Part shown: positions 7,723 through 39,806 of the stretch, piece after piece
How positions within the stretch are numbered: position 1 is the stretch's first letter
Layout: every line of letters begins with the position of its first letter
Source of the DNA: Gammaproteobacteria bacterium
GTDB taxonomy: Bacteria; Pseudomonadota; Gammaproteobacteria; SZUA-229
Assembly: GCA_024277705.1 (NCBI GenBank)
Contig: JAJRUQ010000119.1
Span: 1-48,613, forward strand
Direction of reading: 5' to 3'
Length of the DNA: 48,613 bases
The notes under the pieces: generated by a model
The model's input: the letters and a program-made list of their open reading frames with translations, nothing else
Told to the model about the DNA's origin: nothing
Database searches by the model: none
Translations under genes and position numbers: made by a program

Positions 7723-8363
7723 CGCCAGCATCAAATGAGCATAAAGACAAACTTAAAGGACTCTATGCAATAACCGATGAACAGCTGATAGCGGAAGACA
7801 ATTTCGCCCGCAGTATTGAGCAGGCCTTACAGGGCGGCGCCAGAATCATTCAATATCGTGACAAATCTGCTGATCAGAGCAAAAGATTTCAGCAGGCAAC
7901 ATGCCTGCAAGCTCTGTGCAAACAATACCACGCAATCTGCATTATCAATGATGACATCGCGCTGGCGAAAGCAGTCAATGCTGACGGTGTTCATTTAGGA
8001 AAAGAGGATGTTTCGATCTCACAGGCCAGGGAAATCCTTGGTGCAAACAGCATCATTGGAATATCCTGTTACAACAAGCTGACTATTGCGCTTACCGCCG
8101 AAAATAATAATGCCAGTTATGTTGCCTTCGGAGCGATCTTTTCGTCACCCACTAAACCCGATGCAGTAAATGCCGGTACAAAATTAATTGCCCGCGCCAA
8201 AGCACAACTTTCCATACCGGTATGCGCCATTGGCGGCATTAGTGACAAAAATATACAACAGGTGATCCATCAGGGGGCAGACATGGCCGCCGTTATCAGC
8301 AGTTTATTCGCCAGTGAAAATATCAAACACATGGCCGGCATTCTGCAACAAAACTTTCACTAA
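7719..8363 (+). CDS. thiE: Thiamine-phosphate synthase ThiE
   Basis: Joins HMP-PP to the thiazole phosphate to make thiamine monophosphate in the cytoplasm. It is 214 aa with a TIM-barrel layout: LYAITD start strand, IIQYRDKS (pyrophosphate-binding Arg/Lys), INDDIALAKAVNADGVHLGKED (Mg and diphosphate site), GISCYN, AFGAIFSSPTK (phosphate contact), and VCAIGGISDKN near the C terminus. The start is a GTG within the thiD stop. Together with thiD it supplies the last steps before thiamine-P; thiC, thiG and thiL are not in the window. Confidence 0.95.
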   Translation: MTPASNEHKDKLKGLYAITDEQLIAEDNFARSIEQALQGGARIIQYRDKSADQSKRFQQATCLQALCKQYHAICIINDDIALAKAVNADGVHLGKEDVSISQAREILGANSIIGISCYNKLTIALTAENNNASYVAFGAIFSSPTKPDAVNAGTKLIARAKAQLSIPVCAIGGISDKNIQQVIHQGADMAAVISSLFASENIKHMAGILQQNFH

Positions 8364-8370
8364 ACCGGCT

Positions 8371-9906
8371 GTGCCTTCTGCTCCATCAGTAAAAACTATT
8401 GTTATCATCTGGCTGTGCTTAAGCACCGTCTTGTTCACTGCTGCTCAGGCAGAAGAAAACACACTGGCAGACGAACACGCCATCATTCCGGCAACACCAC
8501 CCTTGTTAACAGATGCTGAGCCAGTAGCGCTAAACACCGCCGAAACAGGCTCTGCTGGCAGCACCGGCAGCTCACCACCGGTACCACAGCCACCCTTGCT
8601 TACGCCACCTGCAAAAAAAACTTATGAGCCGCCACTTGAACAGACCACAGGCGTCAATCACAGCACGGAAGACGACAATATTGACACCAGCAGGCAACCG
8701 GTAGCGGACAGAACACCACAGCCACCACAGATCGATCCACGAGTTGAACCAAGCTATGGCCCCAGCACCTCTGAGGAGGTAAACGAACAGGAGTCAGAGC
8801 AGAAAACTGCGGCGGATAAACCCCATAAAACCACAGGCCACGATCAGGCATCAGACGATATTACAGCGCCGCTTACTGAAGAGTCCACTAAACAGACAAA
8901 CTGGCTGGATATTCGCCCGCAGCGCGTAAATGCAGACTGGTTACAACTGAGTTCAGGTGAATGGTTAAGGGGCCGGATCATCGTCATGCAGAATGACACT
9001 CTTGAATTTAGCAGCGATGAACTCAATAACCTGGAAATAAACTGGAAAAATGTTAAATACATCAAAAGTTCAGAGCCCTACAGCCTGCGATTTGACCATC
9101 GTGTAAATACTATCGGCGCCATCGAGATCACTCAGGATACCGTACACGTTATCACTGACTATGATGATCAGAGCTTTAACCGCAGCGAACTCATAAGCAT
9201 TGCTTCCGGCCATGAAACGGAAATAAGCAAATGGGTCAATAAAATAACCATCGGACTTAATATACGCCGGGGAAATACCAATCAAACCGATTTCAACTCT
9301 AAAATAAGCGCCAAGCGGCGCACCACCAACTCCAGGCTACTGTTTGATTATCTGGGCAACTTCACCGAAGTAGAAAGCACCAAAACCATAAACAATCATC
9401 GCTTGAATGCCTCTTATGACATTTTTATGACCCGTTACCTGTTTTTAACCCCGATAACGGCAGAATTTTTTCGTGACCCGTTTCAAAATATAGAACATCG
9501 AGCCAATATCGGTGTCGCAATTGGTTACACCGTTATCCATACAAATAAATCCGAGTGGTACCTGTCAGGCGGCCCGGCCTACCAGAAAACAAATTTTGTC
9601 AGCGTGTCTGCCGGGGAGCTATTAAAATATTCCACGTCCACGTTAATATTAAACACAAAATTTGACACTGAACTGAACAGTAAAGTAGATCTGGAAGGTA
9701 TTTACAGCGTAACCTTTGGTGATCAAAGGACAGGAGGATATACACATCATTCTATCCTGACGCTGGAAACTGAACTCACCCAGAAGTTTGACTTTGATGT
9801 CTCTGTTGTCTGGGAAAGGGTTAGAAATCCGGTACCCGACAAAGATCAAATCACACCACAAAAAGATGATTTCAGGATCCTTATCGGCCTGGGCTACGAT
9901 TTATAA
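8371..9906 (+). CDS. DUF481 outer-membrane beta-barrel protein with proline-rich N-terminal region
   Basis: About 511 aa. A hydrophobic signal sequence (IVIIWLCLSTVLFTAAQA) is followed by about 170 residues of low-complexity Pro/Thr/Glu-rich sequence, a central segment with a WLQLSSGEWLRGRIIVMQNDTL motif that resembles the small beta domain often preceding DUF481, and a C-terminal DUF481 barrel with alternating aromatic strands ending GLGYDL. The open frame reaches a GTG at 8314 inside thiE; I favour the GTG at 8371 because it places the signal sequence at the N terminus, but no strong ribosome site decides this. DUF481 proteins are outer-membrane proteins without an assigned function. It directly follows thiE. 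Confidence 0.75.
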   Translation: MPSAPSVKTIVIIWLCLSTVLFTAAQAEENTLADEHAIIPATPPLLTDAEPVALNTAETGSAGSTGSSPPVPQPPLLTPPAKKTYEPPLEQTTGVNHSTEDDNIDTSRQPVADRTPQPPQIDPRVEPSYGPSTSEEVNEQESEQKTAADKPHKTTGHDQASDDITAPLTEESTKQTNWLDIRPQRVNADWLQLSSGEWLRGRIIVMQNDTLEFSSDELNNLEINWKNVKYIKSSEPYSLRFDHRVNTIGAIEITQDTVHVITDYDDQSFNRSELISIASGHETEISKWVNKITIGLNIRRGNTNQTDFNSKISAKRRTTNSRLLFDYLGNFTEVESTKTINNHRLNASYDIFMTRYLFLTPITAEFFRDPFQNIEHRANIGVAIGYTVIHTNKSEWYLSGGPAYQKTNFVSVSAGELLKYSTSTLILNTKFDTELNSKVDLEGIYSVTFGDQRTGGYTHHSILTLETELTQKFDFDVSVVWERVRNPVPDKDQITPQKDDFRILIGLGYDL

Positions 9907-10808: not shown

Positions 10809-12899
10809 TTATTTGGCTGCTTCGCGCTCCTTCACTTCTTTAATCACATCTTCCGATACGTTCTTAGGTGCTGCCACATAATGCAGGAACTCCATGGAGA
10901 ACTGGCCACGTCCGGATGTCATGGTACGCAGTGTACCAATGTAACCAAACATTTCACTCAATGGACATTCGGCTTTAATGCGTACACCGGTTGGACCGGC
11001 TTCCTGTGATTTGATCATGCCACGACGGCGGTTCAGGTCACCGATTACATCACCAACGTGATCTTCCGGAGTGAACACATCCACCTTCATGATCGGCTCC
11101 ATCAGTTGAGGCCCGGCTTTAGGCATGGTCTGACGATAAGCGGCTTTTGCTGCCAGCTCGAACGCTACCGCAGAGGAATCCACTGCATGGAACTGACCGT
11201 CCATCAATGTCACTTTAAAGTCCAGACAGGGGAAACCTGCAAGCACACCGTGTTCCGCCATTCTCTCAAAACCTTTTTCAATCGCGGGCCAGAATTCACG
11301 TGGCACATTACCACCGGTTACTTTTGACTCAAACTCATAACCACTGCCCGGCTCGCCCGGCTCGATAACATAATCAATTTTACCAAACTGACCTGAACCA
11401 CCTGACTGCTTCTTGTGTGTATAGGAATCTTCTACACGCTGGGTGATCGTCTCACGATAAGCCACCTGCGGTTTACCGATTGTTGCATCGATACCGTGGG
11501 TACGCTTAAGAATATCAACCTTGATATCAAGGTGTAATTCACCCATCCCTTTAAGGATGGTTTCACCGGAATCTTCATCTGTTTCAACACGGAACGATGG
11601 ATCTTCTTTGATCATCTTACCCAGTGCAATACCCAGCTTCTCAGAAGCACCTTTATCATTGGGTGAAATAGAAATTGAAATAACCGGATCAGGGAACACC
11701 ATTGGCTCCAGTGTTGCAGGCTGTTTTTCATCACATAAAGTGTGACCGGTCTGTACATTCTTCATGCCGACAACCGCAATAATGTCCCCCGCCTGTGCAC
11801 CATCCAGCTCAATACGCTCATCAGCATGCATTTCAACCATACGGCCGATACGCTCGGTTTTACCGGTAAAAGTATTTAATACCGTCATACCTTTCTCCAG
11901 ACGACCGGAATAGATACGGATAAAGGTCAAAGCACCAAAGCGGTCATCCATAATTTTAAATGCCAGCGCACGCAATGGTTTGCCAGGATCAACAATGGCG
12001 TATTCGCCGGTTTCGTTACCTTCCAGATCAACTTCCGGCTGCGGTTTAACTTCGGTTGGATCGGGCAAATAATCAACTGCCGCATCCAGTACCAGTTGCA
12101 CACCTTTATCTTTAAATGCAGAGCCGCAATAAGTCGGGAAAAAGTCCATGGTTAAGGTACCCTTACGGATACATTTTTTAATTTCTTCCTTCGTCGGCTC
12201 TTCACCTTCGAGATAGCGCTCCATAACATCATCATCCTGCTCTACCGCAGTTTCAATCAGTTTTTCACGCCACTCTTCAATTTCATCAGCCATCTCGGCA
12301 GGTGGCTCTTCGATACGGTAAGCCGTGGTATCCTGTTCATTATCCCAGATCCATGCTTTGCGCGACAACAGGTCGACACAGCCTTTAAAATCATCTTCAA
12401 TGCCAATCGGCAGCACCATGACCAGTGGATTAGCGCCCAGAACATCTTCTACCTGCTTCACCACGCGGTAGAAATCTGCACCGATGCGATCCAGCTTGTT
12501 AACAAAAATAACACGGGAAACTTCTGACTCATTTGCATAACGCCAGTTGGTTTCTGATTGCGGCTCAACACCGCCAGAGCCACAAAATACGCCGATGCCT
12601 CCGTCCAGAACTTTTAATGAACGATACACTTCGATAGTGAAGTCAACGTGTCCCGGTGTGTCGATAATATTCAAACGATGACCGTTCCATTCACAGCTGG
12701 TGGCTGCAGACTGGATAGTAATACCACGCTCCTGTTCCTGCTCCATGAAATCGGTAGTTGCTTCACCGTCATGCACCTCACCGGTTTTATGGATCTTGCC
12801 GGTCAATTTCAGAATACGTTCTGTGGTTGTTGTTTTACCGGCGTCCACATGGGCGAAAATACCGATATTTCTATATTTACTTAAGTCTACGTCTGCCAT
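10809..12899 (-). CDS. fusA2: Elongation factor G, EF-G2 (FusA2) type
   Basis: A 696-residue translational GTPase. Domain I carries [15 protein letters not shown] (G1), GITIQSA (G2), DTPGHVD (G3) and NKLD (G4). Domains II-V follow, with the GMGELHLDI segment and the C-terminal [10 protein letters not shown]. The start [13 protein letters not shown] and the long stretch [27 protein letters not shown] match the EF-G2 paralogue known in Vibrio and Shewanella, not the str-operon EF-G. Consistent with that, no rpsL, rpsG or tuf gene is nearby. I chose the ATG at 12899; the frame runs 17 codons upstream without conserved sequence. EF-G canonically drives translocation and recycling; the particular role of EF-G2 is less clear. 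Confidence 0.92.
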
Positions 12900-13225
12900 G
12901 GCTCTACTACCTTGCGTGTATTTATGTACGTTTGTATAAAAAATTGTCAATCCCTTACAAGCGACAAAGCCGGTGAAAAACCACCAGCTTTACGACAGTA
13001 CAAAATCAGGATTAATTTAGCCGGCGAATTATACAGCAAAGCGGGTCATAATTGTTGACAAAAACACAAATTTACCTGATTTTCATAAACTCTTGATTTT
13101 ATTATCATCCTGACATTAAATTTTGCACAGCTTAAGACACAAAAGTTGACTGCTAATTGCACTCAGCAAACAAATAACGCAAGATAGACAGTCTATAAAC
13201 AAAGGTTTTACAGAAAGGTCCAGCA
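12900..13225. promoter_or_regulatory. Divergent spacer with probable fusA2 promoter
   Basis: This 326-bp spacer separates fusA2 from the exported operon. A perfect minus-strand TATAAT lies at 13033-13028, about 130 bases upstream of the fusA2 ATG; its -35 is weak. On the plus strand TTGATT and TTAAAT, 17 bp apart around 13.1 kb, are a weak candidate for the exported operon. No RNA gene or other coding sequence was seen. Confidence 0.45.
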
Positions 13226-14032
13226 ATGAAGTTTTTAAAAGCACTGTTTTTTCTTGCTCTATCGTCCGCTTTTATCATTACCCCAGCCGGGGCAGGCGAG
13301 CTTCTGAATAATATTCAAAAATCGGGAGAAATAAAAGTAGGCGTTTCCATCATGCCGCCCTGGGTCATGGAAAATAAAAAAGGCGAATTAATCGGTTTTG
13401 AAATTGATATTGCCAAACAGCTGGCAAAAGATATCGGCGTCAAAGTAATATTTAAACAATATCAATGGAAACAGCTGATAAACGCACTGGTGAAAGGTGA
13501 CATAGACATTATTGCCTCCGGACTCTCAATTACCCCGAAACGCGCCCTGACAATAAATTATTCCAATCCGTACTCAAGCTCGGGATACCGACTGGTAACC
13601 AATTTAAATCTGACCAAAGACTTTGACAGCATCAAAGACCTGAACAATGAAAAGATTTATATCACCGCGGTAAAGGGCACAGTATCAGCAACACTTGCAG
13701 CTAAAATTTTTCCTAAAGCCACGCTGGATTTACGCAAAACAGAAAAAGAGGCCAGCGCTGCCGTTATCAATGGCGTGGTTCATGCCTTTATAGCTCCCTC
13801 TCCCATCCCGGAATTTATTTCGCTAAAACACTCAAGCGAAGTCGACCTGCCATTAAAAAATCCGTTATTAACAACAAAAGAGGCTTTTGCTGTTCGCAAA
13901 GGCAATCAGGAAATGTTGAATTTTTTAAATTCATGGATCATTGCTCACAATGCCCACGACTGGATAGAGAGCTCACATGAATACTGGTTTAACAGTATGA
14001 AATGGCAACGACAGGTTGCGGATGTACACTAA
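13226..14032 (+). CDS. Extracellular solute-binding protein, family 3, without a cognate permease
   Basis: A 268-residue periplasmic protein with a signal sequence (residues 1 to about 23, ending TPAGAG). The mature part follows the type-3 (amino-acid binding) fold: EIKVGVSIMPPWVMENKKGELIGFEIDIAKQLA, then DIIASGLSITPKRA, the NYSNPYSSSGYRLV hinge and an AVRKGN block. No ABC permease or ATPase gene is adjacent; instead it heads a set of exported proteins whose next start overlaps its stop (TAATG). It may be a sensor or scavenging protein within that set. The ligand is unknown. The ATG at 13226 has a GAAAGG-type ribosome site. Confidence 0.85.
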   Translation: MKFLKALFFLALSSAFIITPAGAGELLNNIQKSGEIKVGVSIMPPWVMENKKGELIGFEIDIAKQLAKDIGVKVIFKQYQWKQLINALVKGDIDIIASGLSITPKRALTINYSNPYSSSGYRLVTNLNLTKDFDSIKDLNNEKIYITAVKGTVSATLAAKIFPKATLDLRKTEKEASAAVINGVVHAFIAPSPIPEFISLKHSSEVDLPLKNPLLTTKEAFAVRKGNQEMLNFLNSWIIAHNAHDWIESSHEYWFNSMKWQRQVADVH

Positions 14033-14406
14033 TGCCCGAATATTTACAGAAAAATCTGTTTTCGACCGCTACTGGAACAGCGCGAATTAACCGCTTTTTT
14101 CTGTTGTTTTTATTCAGCGCAGCCACCCTTGCCGCTAACAATGGCATCACTCATTTACCGGAAACCTATCGCACTCCCCTGTCTGATATGGTTTACGACG
14201 AACATCACGACTGGCGCGTTGAACCCGGTGAAAAAAACCCCTGGCGCGAAATGGAAGAAGATCTGTTAATCAAGCCAAGAATCAAAGTTGAGCTTTTCCC
14301 GGAATACACCCCTGACAGCTCAGGCAACCCTGTTTCCAACAGCCTGTTTCAGAATGAATATGAAGTAGAAAAACCCGCTACAAGTATTTTCAAGTATACT
14401 TTTTAA
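14032..14406 (+). CDS. Small exported protein of unknown function
   Basis: 124 aa. I do not recognise a family. A hydrophobic stretch at residues about 21-33 (FFLLFLFSAATLAA) looks like a signal sequence or single anchor, followed by a polar, acidic region with WRVEP...NPWREMEEDLL and KVELFPEY motifs. The ATG at 14032 overlaps the preceding TAA, and its own TAA overlaps the next ATG in the same TAATG manner, so it is certainly part of the operon. The frame extends ten codons upstream within the solute-binding protein, but coupling favours the chosen start. Confidence 0.75.
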   Translation: MPEYLQKNLFSTATGTARINRFFLLFLFSAATLAANNGITHLPETYRTPLSDMVYDEHHDWRVEPGEKNPWREMEEDLLIKPRIKVELFPEYTPDSSGNPVSNSLFQNEYEVEKPATSIFKYTF

Positions 14407-15008
14407 TGACCATGCCACATAAACCAGCCATCATGAAATACAACCCTGCTTTTCTATTCATTTTTTTCAACTCAATCTTTCTCAGCACCGGCCTGAATGC
14501 CCAGGTCAGCGAAAGCATTGAATACAAGTACTACCAGATTTCACCTCGTTCAGTATATGAAATAAAACCGGAACTTATGCATCGCTCACCGATTCGCGCA
14601 GGCGGCGGCTCCTTTAACGGACATACCGACTGGTTCATTGACTGGCGTTACCAGCTGTCACAAACCCCTTATGGCTGTCAGGTTCACGGTATACAAACCA
14701 AAGTGCATGTTATCCATACTCTACCAGCGCTCAGTGACCATGTTAGCGATCAACAAACCATCGATGTTTTTACTAAATTCAGCGCCGCACTGACACAGCA
14801 TGAAAAAAATCATGGCAACAACGGACTCACTGCCGCCAGAGAAATGGACAAGGCTTTTAATGCCATTCCGCCACAGCAAAGCTGTCGCAAGCTGGCAGCA
14901 ATAATCGACAGTATTGGCAACAGCACTGTACAAAAATACATACAGGCTGATGATGACTATGACCGTATAACCGGCAACGGCAGTACCGAAGGTGCGGTTA
15001 TTTATTAA
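14406..15008 (+). CDS. DUF922 family exported protein, predicted Zn-dependent protease
   Basis: 200 aa, with a signal sequence (about residues 12-32, ending GLNAQ). Pattern of DUF922: YKYYQISP, ELMHRSPI, a tryptophan-rich FNGHTDWFIDWRY segment, two cysteines, and a metalloprotease-like HEKNH (HEXXH, residues 132-136) followed by GNNGLTAAREMDKAF. DUF922 members are annotated as predicted secreted Zn-dependent proteases on the basis of this motif, without a demonstrated substrate. It lies between the unknown small protein and a barrel, and its start is coupled to the preceding stop. Alternative ATGs at codons 3 and 10 would also keep the signal sequence. Confidence 0.8.
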   Translation: MTMPHKPAIMKYNPAFLFIFFNSIFLSTGLNAQVSESIEYKYYQISPRSVYEIKPELMHRSPIRAGGGSFNGHTDWFIDWRYQLSQTPYGCQVHGIQTKVHVIHTLPALSDHVSDQQTIDVFTKFSAALTQHEKNHGNNGLTAAREMDKAFNAIPPQQSCRKLAAIIDSIGNSTVQKYIQADDDYDRITGNGSTEGAVIY

Positions 15009-15041
15009 GACAGTATTACCACGGCCAACGACTGCGACCCC

Positions 15042-15653
15042 ATGTTAAACCATTGCTTTCTCCACTATTTTTTATGCATACTATTATTTCTCGCCGCCAC
15101 GGATGCCTGTTCAAAGAATATCAGCTTTAATTATGCAGAAGGTAACTTTGTCTCAAGCACCATCAACCTGAGAGCTTCACCAAAAGAACTCGAAGGCAAT
15201 GGTATCGGTTTTAATTTATCACTCAGCTTTCATCCCCGCTATGCCATCACGGCCTCTGTACTGGCAACGACATTTAACAATTTTCAACACATTCCGGTTG
15301 ACACCATTAAGACTACCGACCTGGGCGTGACCGCACACACTTCCATCGCTGAGCGCAGCGAAGTATTTGGCAATATATCGCTACTCAGGGCCGAAATTAC
15401 CTCTGACAATGGTACTGCTTCCGGCAATGACAACGACATTGGTTATCAACTAAAAGCCGGTTTACGCCATTTTATCAGCGAGTCCCTTGAACTGGAGACA
15501 GGTATCACACATTTTTATATCTTTAATTATCCTGACAATACGCTAAACCTTGAAATGCGCTACTACACAGACGGTCACTTTTCCCTCGGTATAGCGTATG
15601 CTGCAGGAGGGCATAAAGATTCACTGTCGGTGAACGGACGCATGAGCTTTTAA
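15042..15653 (+). CDS. Small outer-membrane beta-barrel protein
   Basis: 203 aa with a signal sequence (about residues 7-22). The rest alternates hydrophobic and polar residues in about eight strands (for example GIGFNLSLSFHPRYAITASVLATT, IGYQLKAGLRHFI, FSLGIAYAAGG) and ends in a phenylalanine (GRMSF), the BAM recognition residue typical of outer-membrane barrels. A Cys near the end of the signal region does not fit a canonical lipobox. No family was recognised. It is last in the exported operon, 33 bases after DUF922, and is followed by a strong terminator. Confidence 0.75.
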   Translation: MLNHCFLHYFLCILLFLAATDACSKNISFNYAEGNFVSSTINLRASPKELEGNGIGFNLSLSFHPRYAITASVLATTFNNFQHIPVDTIKTTDLGVTAHTSIAERSEVFGNISLLRAEITSDNGTASGNDNDIGYQLKAGLRHFISESLELETGITHFYIFNYPDNTLNLEMRYYTDGHFSLGIAYAAGGHKDSLSVNGRMSF

Positions 15654-15717
15654 ACCACCGGACTGACACAGCGGCCTTTAATTTTTTCCGGTCCCACTTA
15701 TAAAACATTCAGACATC

Positions 15718-15744
15718 AAAAAAGCCGGCATTACCGGCTTTTTT
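15718..15744. terminator. Bidirectional intrinsic terminator between the exported operon and bipA
   Basis: Perfect 11-bp stem (AAAAAAGCCGG with CCGGCTTTTTT) with a five-base loop. It lies 65 bases after the barrel gene and 28 bases beyond the end of bipA, so it can serve both convergent transcripts. Confidence 0.9.
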
Positions 15745-15771
15745 GACTATCTCAACAAATACACGCCAAGC

Positions 15772-17592
15772 CTACTTTTTTGACTTACCGCGACCCGCAC
15801 TCTTGCGCTCATTTTCCTTCAACAGTTTTTTACGGATACGAATATTTTCCGGTGTCACTTCAACCAGCTCATCATCATCGATAAATTCCAGCGCCTGCTC
15901 CAGTGTGTATTGAATGTGTGGCGACAGCGTCAATGCGTCATCGGTACCGGAAGCACGCACATTCGTCAGCGGTTTCGGTTTAATCGGGTTAACCACCAGA
16001 TCATTATCGCGTGAATGAATACCGACAATCTGGCCTTCATAAACTTCATCATTATTACCCACCAGCAACTTACCACGCTCCTGCAACGGACACAGCGAAT
16101 AAGCCACGGCTTTACCGCGCGCATTGGAAATCAGCACCCCGTTAGCGCGCTGACCGATACCATCGGATACAATCGGACCATAATGGTCAAACACACTGTA
16201 CAGCAAGCCGGTACCGCGTGTCATCGACAGGTATTCTGTCCTGAAACCGATCAAACCACGTGCCGGAATAATAAAGTCCAGCCGCACCCGGCCTTTGCCG
16301 TCCTGCACCATGTCTTTTAATTCTGCCTTACGCATGCCTAACGCTTCCATGACGGCGCCCTGATGCTCTACTTCGATATCAGCGGTCAATTCTTCATAGG
16401 GCTCCAGCTTGATGCCGTTTTCTTCGTGAATAATCACTTCCGGGCGCCCCACGGCCAGCTCAAAGTTTTCGCGGCGCATGGTTTCAATCAATACCGAAAG
16501 GTGCAGCTCACCCCGGCCGGATACTTTATATTTATCACCATCAACCTGCTCAACGCGCAAGGCAACATTATGCTTCAGCTCCTGCTGCAGACGATCCCAG
16601 ATATTACGACTGGTCACATATTTGCCTTCCTGACCGGAAAACGGTGAGGAATTTGCCTGGAACGTCATACTGATGGTCGGCTCATCAACCGTCATCGGCG
16701 GCAATGCTTCAACATTATTCGGGTCACAGATGGTATCAGAAATAGATAAAGGATCGATACCGGTAATAGCCACAATATCACCCGCCTGTGCTTCTTCCTG
16801 CTCAACGCGCTCCAGTCCATGAAAACCTAATACCTGACCGATACGGCCATTGCGTTCAGTACCATCATCACCGATGATTTTTACCGCCATATTGGTTTTG
16901 ACTTTGCCACGGCTGATACGACCGATACCGATAATACCGACATAGCTGTTGTAATCAAGGGTTGAAATCTGTAACTGGAACGGTCCATCGATATTGACAT
17001 CCGGGGCATGAACATGTTCGATAATCGCTTCAAATAACGGCGTCATATCGCCGTCGGTAATATCGGAATCATTCCCTGCATAACCATTAATCGCCGAGGC
17101 ATAGATCACAGGGAAGTCCAGCTGCTCATCGGTAGCACCTAACTTATCAAACAGATCAAAGGTTAAATCCAGTGCCCGATCCGGGTTGGCACCGTCGCGG
17201 TCAATCTTGTTAATTACCACAATAGGCTTGAACCCCATAGCAAAGGCTTTCTGGGTCACAAAACGGGTCTGCGGCATCGGGCCATCTACGGCATCAACCA
17301 GTAACAATACTGAATCGACCATGGAAAGCACACGTTCCACTTCACCACCGAAGTCCGCGTGTCCCGGTGTATCAACGATATTAATGTGATAGTCATTCCA
17401 TTCAATCGCAGTATTTTTTGAGGTAATGGTAATACCGCGTTCTTTTTCCTGGTCATTAGAGTCCATGATGCGCTCACCGGGCGCTTTGCGCTCATCCAGT
17501 GTGCCGGATTGTTCAAGCAGTTTATCAACCAGTGTAGTCTTGCCGTGGTCGACATGGGCAATGATAGCGATGGTACGGATTTTAATACTCAC
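15772..17592 (-). CDS. typA: Ribosome-associated GTPase BipA/TypA
   Basis: 606 aa, the standard length. BipA is a translational GTPase that acts in 50S assembly and stress or low-temperature growth. G motifs: [15 protein letters not shown] (G1), GITITSK (G2), [14 protein letters not shown] (G3), NKIDRDGA (G4). The BipA-specific C-terminal region is present: [32 protein letters not shown], and a Lys-rich end. The start is a GTG at 17592; no ATG gives the conserved N terminus. A perfect -10 TATAAT lies just upstream. It shares the strand and close spacing with the two upstream genes. Confidence 0.97.
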
Positions 17593-37580: not shown

Positions 37581-39806
37581 TCAGCTGGCAATTGACTGAC
37601 GATTTAACCAGACAGCTATTGCTTCAGCCGATAGTGGTTTTGACAGGTAATACCCCTGACCACGACCACAGTTCAGTGTTTTTAAATAGTTAAGTTGTTG
37701 CTCCGTCTCAATACCTTCCGCCACCACATCCATGGACAGCCCATGAGCCATACTAACAATGGTTGCAGCAATTTGCATATCATCTTTATCTTCCGGAATA
37801 CCCATGATGAATGAACGATCGATTTTCAGGGTATCAATCGGCAATTGCTTGAGATAACTGAGGCTGGAGTAACCCGTTCCAAAATCATCAATAGAAAACC
37901 TGACGCCCTCACCGGTTAACCTGTCCAAAGCCGCTCTCACTTTGTCCGTGATGTTTAAAAACATCCTTTCAGTGATTTCCAGCTCTAACTGCTGCGCCGA
38001 CAAACCGGTACTTTTTAATGTTGCCATCACACTCGAATACAGCCGGTCATGATCAAACTGCAAGGATGAAACATTAACGGCGAGAAGAAGCGACCCCAAG
38101 CCCTGTGCCTGCCATTCACATACCTGCCTGCAGGCATGCTCCAGCACCCAGTCACCAATGCGCACAATCAGGCCGGTCTCCTCCGCCAACGGAATAAATT
38201 CATCCGGCATAATCAAACCCCGGTCCGGATCCTGCCAGCGAATCAGGGCCTCAACCCCGACGGGTTGCTGATCTTCAAGATTAAAGACCGGCTGGTAATA
38301 AAGCCGAAATTCATCACGTTCAAGGGCATGGCGTAACCGTGTTTCCATGCTGAGTCGCTGTTGCACACGCTGCGTTAATTTTTCATTATAAAACTGGTAA
38401 TTATTACCGCCCTGATCCTTGGCATGATACATCGCAGCATCGGAATACTTTAACAGGTTGTTACCGTTGTTATCATCATCCGGATACAGGGCAACACCGA
38501 TGCATACCGAGGAAAAAACCTCGGTTCCCTCTATACTGACAGGCGCATTAAGGCATTTCAGCATACGATCTGTTACCTGATTAATATAAGACAGCTCCGT
38601 AATGTCCTGTAATACAGCAACAAACTCATCACCACCAAAACGATGAATAGAATCTTCATCGCGCAAACAGCTCTGCAGGCGGCCGGCGACATGTACGATC
38701 AACTGGTCACCCGCATCATGACCAAGACTGTCATTAACCGTTTTGAAACGGTCTATATCAATAAATAAAACGGCTACTTTGGTATTTCTGCGCCCGGCAC
38801 TACCAATAACAGATTTAAGACGCTCCAGTAAAGAAACCCGGTTGGGCAGCTTTGTCAGCGAATCATAATAAGCCAGTTCATCAAGCTTGCGTTCTGCCTC
38901 ACGCCTTTCATCCACCTCCGACTGCAATTCATGAGTACGAACCGCTACCTGGCGGCGTAACAAAAAAGTAAGCCCGAACATGAGAATAATGACACTGAAC
39001 AGCCCCGTTGCCAGCCAGATCAACCAGCGATACGACTGAGCATGAGCAGGCTGGGTCAGCCAGCGACGAATAGTGGAAAAATAAATTGAATCTTCATCGG
39101 CCTTGAAACGAAGCAACTGCTGGTCGATGACATCAAGAATAACGCGATTAGCAGGATCCAGTGCCGCATAATGAATATTGATAGGATTAAAGATAATACC
39201 GGTTTCAACAAGATTATATTTATTGGCATTCAGCGCCCCGAAAAGACGATTAGCCACGCCCGCATCCGTATCACCATCTTTCACGCTTTGCATCACATCG
39301 CTGAAGTTTGCCAGCTCAACTATTTCCAGATTTAAATCGAATTTTTTAACCAGTGTGCGAAAAGCACGTTCATGTATATTGTTATTCATCACCCCCACAC
39401 GTTTGCCTTCCAGGCCAAAAAGGGAGCTGATATTTGAATCAATGCGCGAATACACCAGTCCCCAGTTACTGATATAGGCACTTTTAGAAAAAGTATATAT
39501 TTCGGCCCGCTTCTCTGAATAGGCCATCATTGAGATAATATCAATCTTTTGCGCCTCGAAATTCTTCAGATGATCAGTGAAGGAACCTTCGACATATTCA
39601 AGCTTCCAGCCCTGCTGGTCAGCAATGGCCTGCAGAAGATCAATCGAGATACCCCGCCACTCACCATTGTCATCCTTAAACGCCACCGGTGGATTAGGAA
39701 AAACACCGACACGAATAAGCTGACCAGGAACATCTTTTATCTCACCGGCAAATACCGGCGTTAATGAAAACAAAACAAAAAGTATGATGAAGGCAGGTTT
39801 AAACAT
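37581..39806 (-). CDS. Periplasmic-sensor GGDEF-EAL cyclic di-GMP protein
   Basis: 741 aa in the order signal sequence, family-3 solute-binding sensor domain (about residues 30-255), one membrane helix (about 262-286), a coiled linker, GGDEF domain and EAL domain. The diguanylate cyclase motif RFGGDEF is intact. The phosphodiesterase domain keeps EALIRW, NVSS, ELEITE, DDFGTGYSSL, KIDRSF, EGIE and QGYYLSKP, so it may be active in either or both directions. A periplasmic ligand, probably a small amino-acid-like compound, is sensed. It is followed by a small membrane protein gene. ATG at 39806. The upstream 458-bp gap is described separately. Confidence 0.93.
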   Translation of the reverse strand: MFKPAFIILFVLFSLTPVFAGEIKDVPGQLIRVGVFPNPPVAFKDDNGEWRGISIDLLQAIADQQGWKLEYVEGSFTDHLKNFEAQKIDIISMMAYSEKRAEIYTFSKSAYISNWGLVYSRIDSNISSLFGLEGKRVGVMNNNIHERAFRTLVKKFDLNLEIVELANFSDVMQSVKDGDTDAGVANRLFGALNANKYNLVETGIIFNPINIHYAALDPANRVILDVIDQQLLRFKADEDSIYFSTIRRWLTQPAHAQSYRWLIWLATGLFSVIILMFGLTFLLRRQVAVRTHELQSEVDERREAERKLDELAYYDSLTKLPNRVSLLERLKSVIGSAGRRNTKVAVLFIDIDRFKTVNDSLGHDAGDQLIVHVAGRLQSCLRDEDSIHRFGGDEFVAVLQDITELSYINQVTDRMLKCLNAPVSIEGTEVFSSVCIGVALYPDDDNNGNNLLKYSDAAMYHAKDQGGNNYQFYNEKLTQRVQQRLSMETRLRHALERDEFRLYYQPVFNLEDQQPVGVEALIRWQDPDRGLIMPDEFIPLAEETGLIVRIGDWVLEHACRQVCEWQAQGLGSLLLAVNVSSLQFDHDRLYSSVMATLKSTGLSAQQLELEITERMFLNITDKVRAALDRLTGEGVRFSIDDFGTGYSSLSYLKQLPIDTLKIDRSFIMGIPEDKDDMQIAATIVSMAHGLSMDVVAEGIETEQQLNYLKTLNCGRGQGYYLSKPLSAEAIAVWLNRQSIAS

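Follow-up and report, generated by a model that had tools for sequence, protein, structure and literature searches.

Among the four adjacent genes that lie between fusA (10809-12950, minus strand) and typA (15772-17592, minus strand) in the window (the whole stretch of DNA analysed, 48,613 nucleotides of a gammaproteobacterial genome), the functional unit is a pair: the gene of an orphan family-3 solute-binding protein (SBP) and the gene of a small exported protein (UNK). The genes of a DUF922 protein and of a barrel-like protein that follow are optional neighbours (Table 1). We are highly confident of the anatomy of this unit, namely the SBP-UNK pairing, the coupling of the two genes, the undetected importer and the C-terminal tail of UNK. 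For its function we propose, with a probability of roughly one in three, that an importer receptor has taken on a new role alongside a tail-presenting partner of the MucE kind. Few orphan binding proteins have, to our knowledge, an assigned role; here one SBP clade keeps the same partner from family to family, so that a vague orphan becomes a pair open to experiment.

Table 1. Features of the four-gene block, with positions in the window
Feature	Positions	Strand	Remarks
SBP, orphan family-3 solute-binding protein, 268 aa	13226..14032	+	signal-like N terminus; core of unit
UNK, 124-aa exported protein, ends FKYTF	14032..14406	+	predicted disordered; core of unit
DUF922 protein, 200 aa, HExxH = residues 132-136	14406..15008	+	PF06037; optional neighbour
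Small outer-membrane barrel-like protein, 203 aa	15042..15653	+	PF13505 just below cut-off; sporadic neighbour
Symmetric terminator hairpin	15716..15746	.	-19 kcal/mol, z -7.5; probably common to typA

The first-pass annotation had described the block as an operon of four genes with signal-like N termini, coupled by TAATG overlaps and closed by a strong terminator. All four open reading frames are found on the plus strand at the positions it gave, and signal-like N termini are visible by eye in all four proteins. The TAATG coupling holds for two junctions, with overlaps at 14030-14034 (SBP/UNK) and 14404-14408 (UNK/DUF922), whereas the DUF922 and barrel genes are separated by a gap of 33 bases. 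The block does end in a strong hairpin, which is absent from the list of a simple terminator scan; as the hairpin is symmetric, it may also end the convergent typA.

The pairing of SBP and UNK is strict. We searched 54 genomes of the order for DUF922 and UNK; the SBP search covered the genus, and SBPs of a second genus were identified by reading the loci. UNK is present in 17 of the 54 genomes, and SBP and UNK are always found together in the order: within the genus, 11 genomes have both and seven have neither (p 3e-5, with species that are not independent). In the second genus, six genomes carry the pair away from fusA and typA, between a trxB-adjacent gene and an aat-like gene (names assigned by eye). 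Beyond the order, an SBP profile search with reading of the loci found strong orphan relatives of SBP in another four families of this class, in unrelated contexts (G412 and G442 of one family, G305, G062 and G611); every one of these SBP genes is followed directly by an ORF for a small exported protein whose tail is similar. When the same 369 genomes of the class were searched with a UNK profile, four genomes gave matches, precisely those whose SBPs had scored highest, and these searches returned no UNK lacking its SBP. The coupling is equally regular: in all 21 pairs the start codon of UNK overlaps the stop codon of SBP or lies at most 17 bases beyond it. Conservation of the protein across relatives indicates that UNK is a real gene; the first-pass annotation had listed it as an exported unknown, and it now appears as a genuine, previously undescribed partner of SBP. 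Of 42 genomes in the orders to which G305 and G412 belong, only 3 carry SBP; the pair is therefore patchy, through lateral transfer or repeated loss.

The DUF922 gene follows a different distribution. It is found in 19 of the 54 genomes and lies directly 3' of UNK in ten species of the genus (SBP-UNK-DUF922 in G000, G001, G003, G004, G007-G010, G013 and G017, with the SBP of G013 cut by the contig end). G005 has the pair but no DUF922, with typA directly after UNK; G002, G012, G014 and G016 have DUF922 at the same site but no pair; and all three genes are missing from G006, G011 and G015. These absences are not assembly gaps, since the stretch from fusA to DUF922 could be read through in G014 and G016, with neither SBP nor UNK inside, and since typA directly follows UNK in G005. 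According to this tally (Fisher p 0.25), DUF922 and the pair are only loosely associated in the genus. The pair site of the second genus has no DUF922; a distant DUF922 protein (24-28% identity) is encoded elsewhere in these genomes or, in G021, beside typA, where the pair is missing. G002 has two near-identical DUF922 copies near contig ends (L033, L039), one of them adjoining a divergent typA (51% identity), which may reflect a duplication or contamination of the draft genome.

The barrel gene is more sporadic still. It adjoins the operon only in G000 (the genome of the window), G007 and G013 and is found elsewhere in the genome in G005, G006, G008, G009 and G016. All four genes are closely spaced in G000 and G007; in G013 the series consists of UNK, DUF922 and barrel, with the truncated SBP at the contig end. 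The protein matches OMP_b-brl (PF13505) with an E-value of 5e-6 and 27.2 bits, just under the curated cut-off of 28.7. Another barrel domain in the window, of the DUF481 type, is found at the C-terminus of a 530-amino-acid protein with a long proline- and threonine-rich N-terminal part (8314-9906, plus strand). The set of four is thus not conserved, and the genes of DUF922 and barrel do occur apart from the others in relatives; on the distribution of these two genes we reject the four-gene system of the first-pass annotation.

Membership of the third protein in the DUF922 family (PF06037) is clear (E 2.1e-35, 122.5 bits, cut-off 27), and H132, E133 and H136 are invariant in 19 relatives. Its structure model is confident (pLDDT 91) and places the HExxH motif on a long helix; a fold search against the PDB returned no significant match. 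A survey from 2013 predicts DUF922 to be a zincin-type metalloprotease (PMC3650047), and a literature search with the term DUF922 found no functional test. Our scan of named public genomes for DUF922 returned a single record, a metagenome-assembled genome. The gene is best seen as a separate gene for a predicted periplasmic protease.

SBP itself belongs to the family of amino-acid ABC receptors, with a Pfam match to SBP_bac_3 (PF00497, E 1.5e-29) and PDB 9e2b as the nearest solved structure (E 7.6e-63); we found no publications on 9e2b or on the UNK-linked group of SBPs. The first-pass annotation was right that the binding protein comes without permease or ATPase. No such gene lies beside SBP, the PAAT permease model TIGR01726 has no match in its own genome, and with this profile PAAT permeases were undetected in 52 of the 54 draft genomes of the order; the two matches are in G012 (below cut-off) and G035, neither of which carries the pair. 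More distant relatives of SBP lie in complete ABC operons, among them those of Vibrio, Ruegeria and Paracoccus. A tree of 49 SBPs, rooted by midpoint only, places the 21 UNK-linked proteins in one branch with moderate support (76/85, 80% of bootstrap trees), and its sister group consists mostly of SBPs that are still linked to ABC permeases. The simplest history would be one loss of the transporter linkage together with the gain of UNK. Some relatives have other neighbours. The ABC-linked cousins at L142 and L143 adjoin oxygenase components and a peroxidase-related enzyme, and the Paracoccus cousin is also near RidA and an aspartoacylase-family gene; both contexts may hint at ligand chemistry. 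One cousin that has neither UNK nor permease (L135, 2471-4755) adjoins a radical SAM/SPASM gene, which scores under all named maturase models. A second family-3 binding domain is present in the window of the SBP-UNK pair: a 741-amino-acid protein (37581-39806, minus strand) has this domain followed by GGDEF and EAL domains and is probably a solute sensor wired to cyclic di-GMP.

The pocket of SBP was compared at two positions that, from HisJ and GlnH, we take to be the usual holders of the ligand's carboxylate (Arg) and amine (Asp). The carboxylate-type Arg is kept and invariant in the UNK-linked SBPs, as is much of the cleft; most of them have P, S or A where the amine-type Asp would be. The ligand is therefore probably a carboxylate without a free alpha-amine. 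The Asp is also lost in the nearest ABC-linked cousins and is present in a deeper ABC-linked group; because the pocket motif is common to these cousins, the change in the pocket appears to predate the loss of the transporter.

No Pfam family matches UNK. Its conserved features are short: the motif YRTPLSD, two W-R pairs and a proline ahead of the tail. The structure model has low confidence (mean pLDDT 60.5, a weak sign of disorder), and UNK is predicted to be disordered. At the C-terminus, each of the 21 copies has a tail with alternating residues, [FL]x[YFLVMH]x[FW], to which one copy adds a K. Among 427 other ORFs of at least 150 amino acids in the fetched loci only one has this pattern, a barrel-like exported protein; as the pattern was derived from the UNK tails themselves, these counts are descriptive and not an independent test. 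The pattern resembles the C-terminal signal that is read by BAM and by the PDZ domain of DegS. DegS reads YxF ends (PMC3582582), and the ends of distant UNK copies (LRF, FGF, VQF) fit the general outer-membrane signal better than this preferred one. In one distant copy (L145, 1161-1493, minus strand) the mature protein has, close to its N terminus, the TonB-box-like sequence EEIVVTAP; the motif is clear in this copy only.

From these features we infer the following mechanism. SBP would still bind a small carboxylate that probably lacks a free alpha-amine, and would bind the disordered UNK in place of a permease. The tail of UNK would imitate the C-terminus of an unfolded outer-membrane protein and be read by a factor of the envelope; the likeliest reader would be a DegS/AlgW-type protease through its PDZ domain, as for MucE, and failing that BAM or SurA. 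Occupancy of SBP would control the exposure of the tail, and a solute signal would thereby reach the machinery for envelope stress or for assembly of the outer membrane. The genes of the DUF922 protease and the barrel would be neighbours co-transcribed with the pair in some species and not required parts. Known inputs to envelope stress responses are outer-membrane proteins, LPS and MucE; if DegS/AlgW-type proteases read the tail, a small-molecule input would be added. With considerable doubt, the pair may even be a new two-protein envelope signalling module, in which the receptor acts as a ligand sensor gating a tail that mimics outer-membrane proteins, so that a particular solute, not misfolded porins, would switch an HtrA-type protease or the BAM pathway.

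The strongest alternative, which we consider possible but rather unlikely, is that SBP serves UNK alone, as its chaperone or activator in the periplasm, and that UNK has some other job at the outer membrane, with no ligand signal involved. The one-to-one pairing would fit, and there is a precedent in XoxJ/MxaJ, importer-type binding proteins proposed to serve a non-transport partner, methanol dehydrogenase (PMC7391723); the invariant Arg and much of the cleft, however, suit a protein that continues to bind a small ligand. Less likely again, SBP may feed a distant non-PAAT transporter, with UNK tethering or assisting it. Its nearest cousins are importer receptors, but no PAAT permease was detected in the draft genomes that carry the pair, and the profile does detect the permeases of the ABC-linked cousins (62-88 bits). 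It is improbable that SBP has turned into an enzyme like cyclohexadienyl dehydratase (CDT), which evolved from solute-binding proteins of the same wider family (PMC7683729): the solved structures closest to SBP include reconstructed CDT ancestors, but the pocket motif is common to the ABC-linked cousins and so had changed before the transporter was lost, and this reading leaves UNK without a place. Least probable of all is a single path for ligand sensing or processing that would span periplasm and outer membrane, as in the first-pass annotation, and in which DUF922 would be the processing protease: the close spacing here and in G007, the partial series of G013 and the ten species with DUF922 directly after UNK speak for it, but it depended on DUF922 and barrel belonging to the unit, and both genes occur apart from the pair, as does the pair from DUF922.

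We therefore return to the repurposed receptor with its tail-presenting partner and compare it with known systems. The receptors of PAAT importers (the Vibrio, Ruegeria and Paracoccus operons; PDB 9e2b) belong to the fold family of SBP and share its pocket motif, including the loss of the Asp for the amine. SBP has the family-3 binding domain of this group but no permease or ATPase beside it, and of the Arg and Asp pair most UNK-linked SBPs keep only the Arg; no PAAT permease is detected in its genome, and SBP has a small exported partner instead. As a clear DUF922 member with an invariant HExxH, the product of the third gene fits a known family, yet it stands outside the conserved SBP-UNK unit. 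The likeness to XoxJ/MxaJ lies in an importer-type binding protein with a non-transport periplasmic partner, but the partner of SBP is a small predicted-disordered protein and not a dehydrogenase; SBP scores far below the models of both types (TIGR03870, 18.1 versus 258.1 bits; TIGR03871, 28.7 versus 212.15 bits). In the GRRM peptide system an orphan family-3 binding protein, GrrP (TIGR04262), is likewise found beside a small exported peptide. SBP reaches 50.2 bits with a cut-off of 190; given this score, and as reading of the UNK-linked loci brought up no neighbouring radical SAM gene, UNK was also rejected as a GrrA-like radical-SAM-modified peptide. A lytic transglycosylase of the MltF type was rejected too (65.3 versus 354 bits, with only the binding domain matched). 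In its tail UNK is like MucE, a small envelope protein of Pseudomonas aeruginosa that activates AlgW with its C-terminal WVF (PMC3819740, PMC8545111). UNK, too, is small and exported and has an outer-membrane-like tail, a likeness in general features, and the hydrophobic or aromatic C-terminus of MucE-like PDZ activators is present in all 21 UNK copies; unlike MucE, UNK has a binding protein as its partner, and its tails are FKYTF-like.
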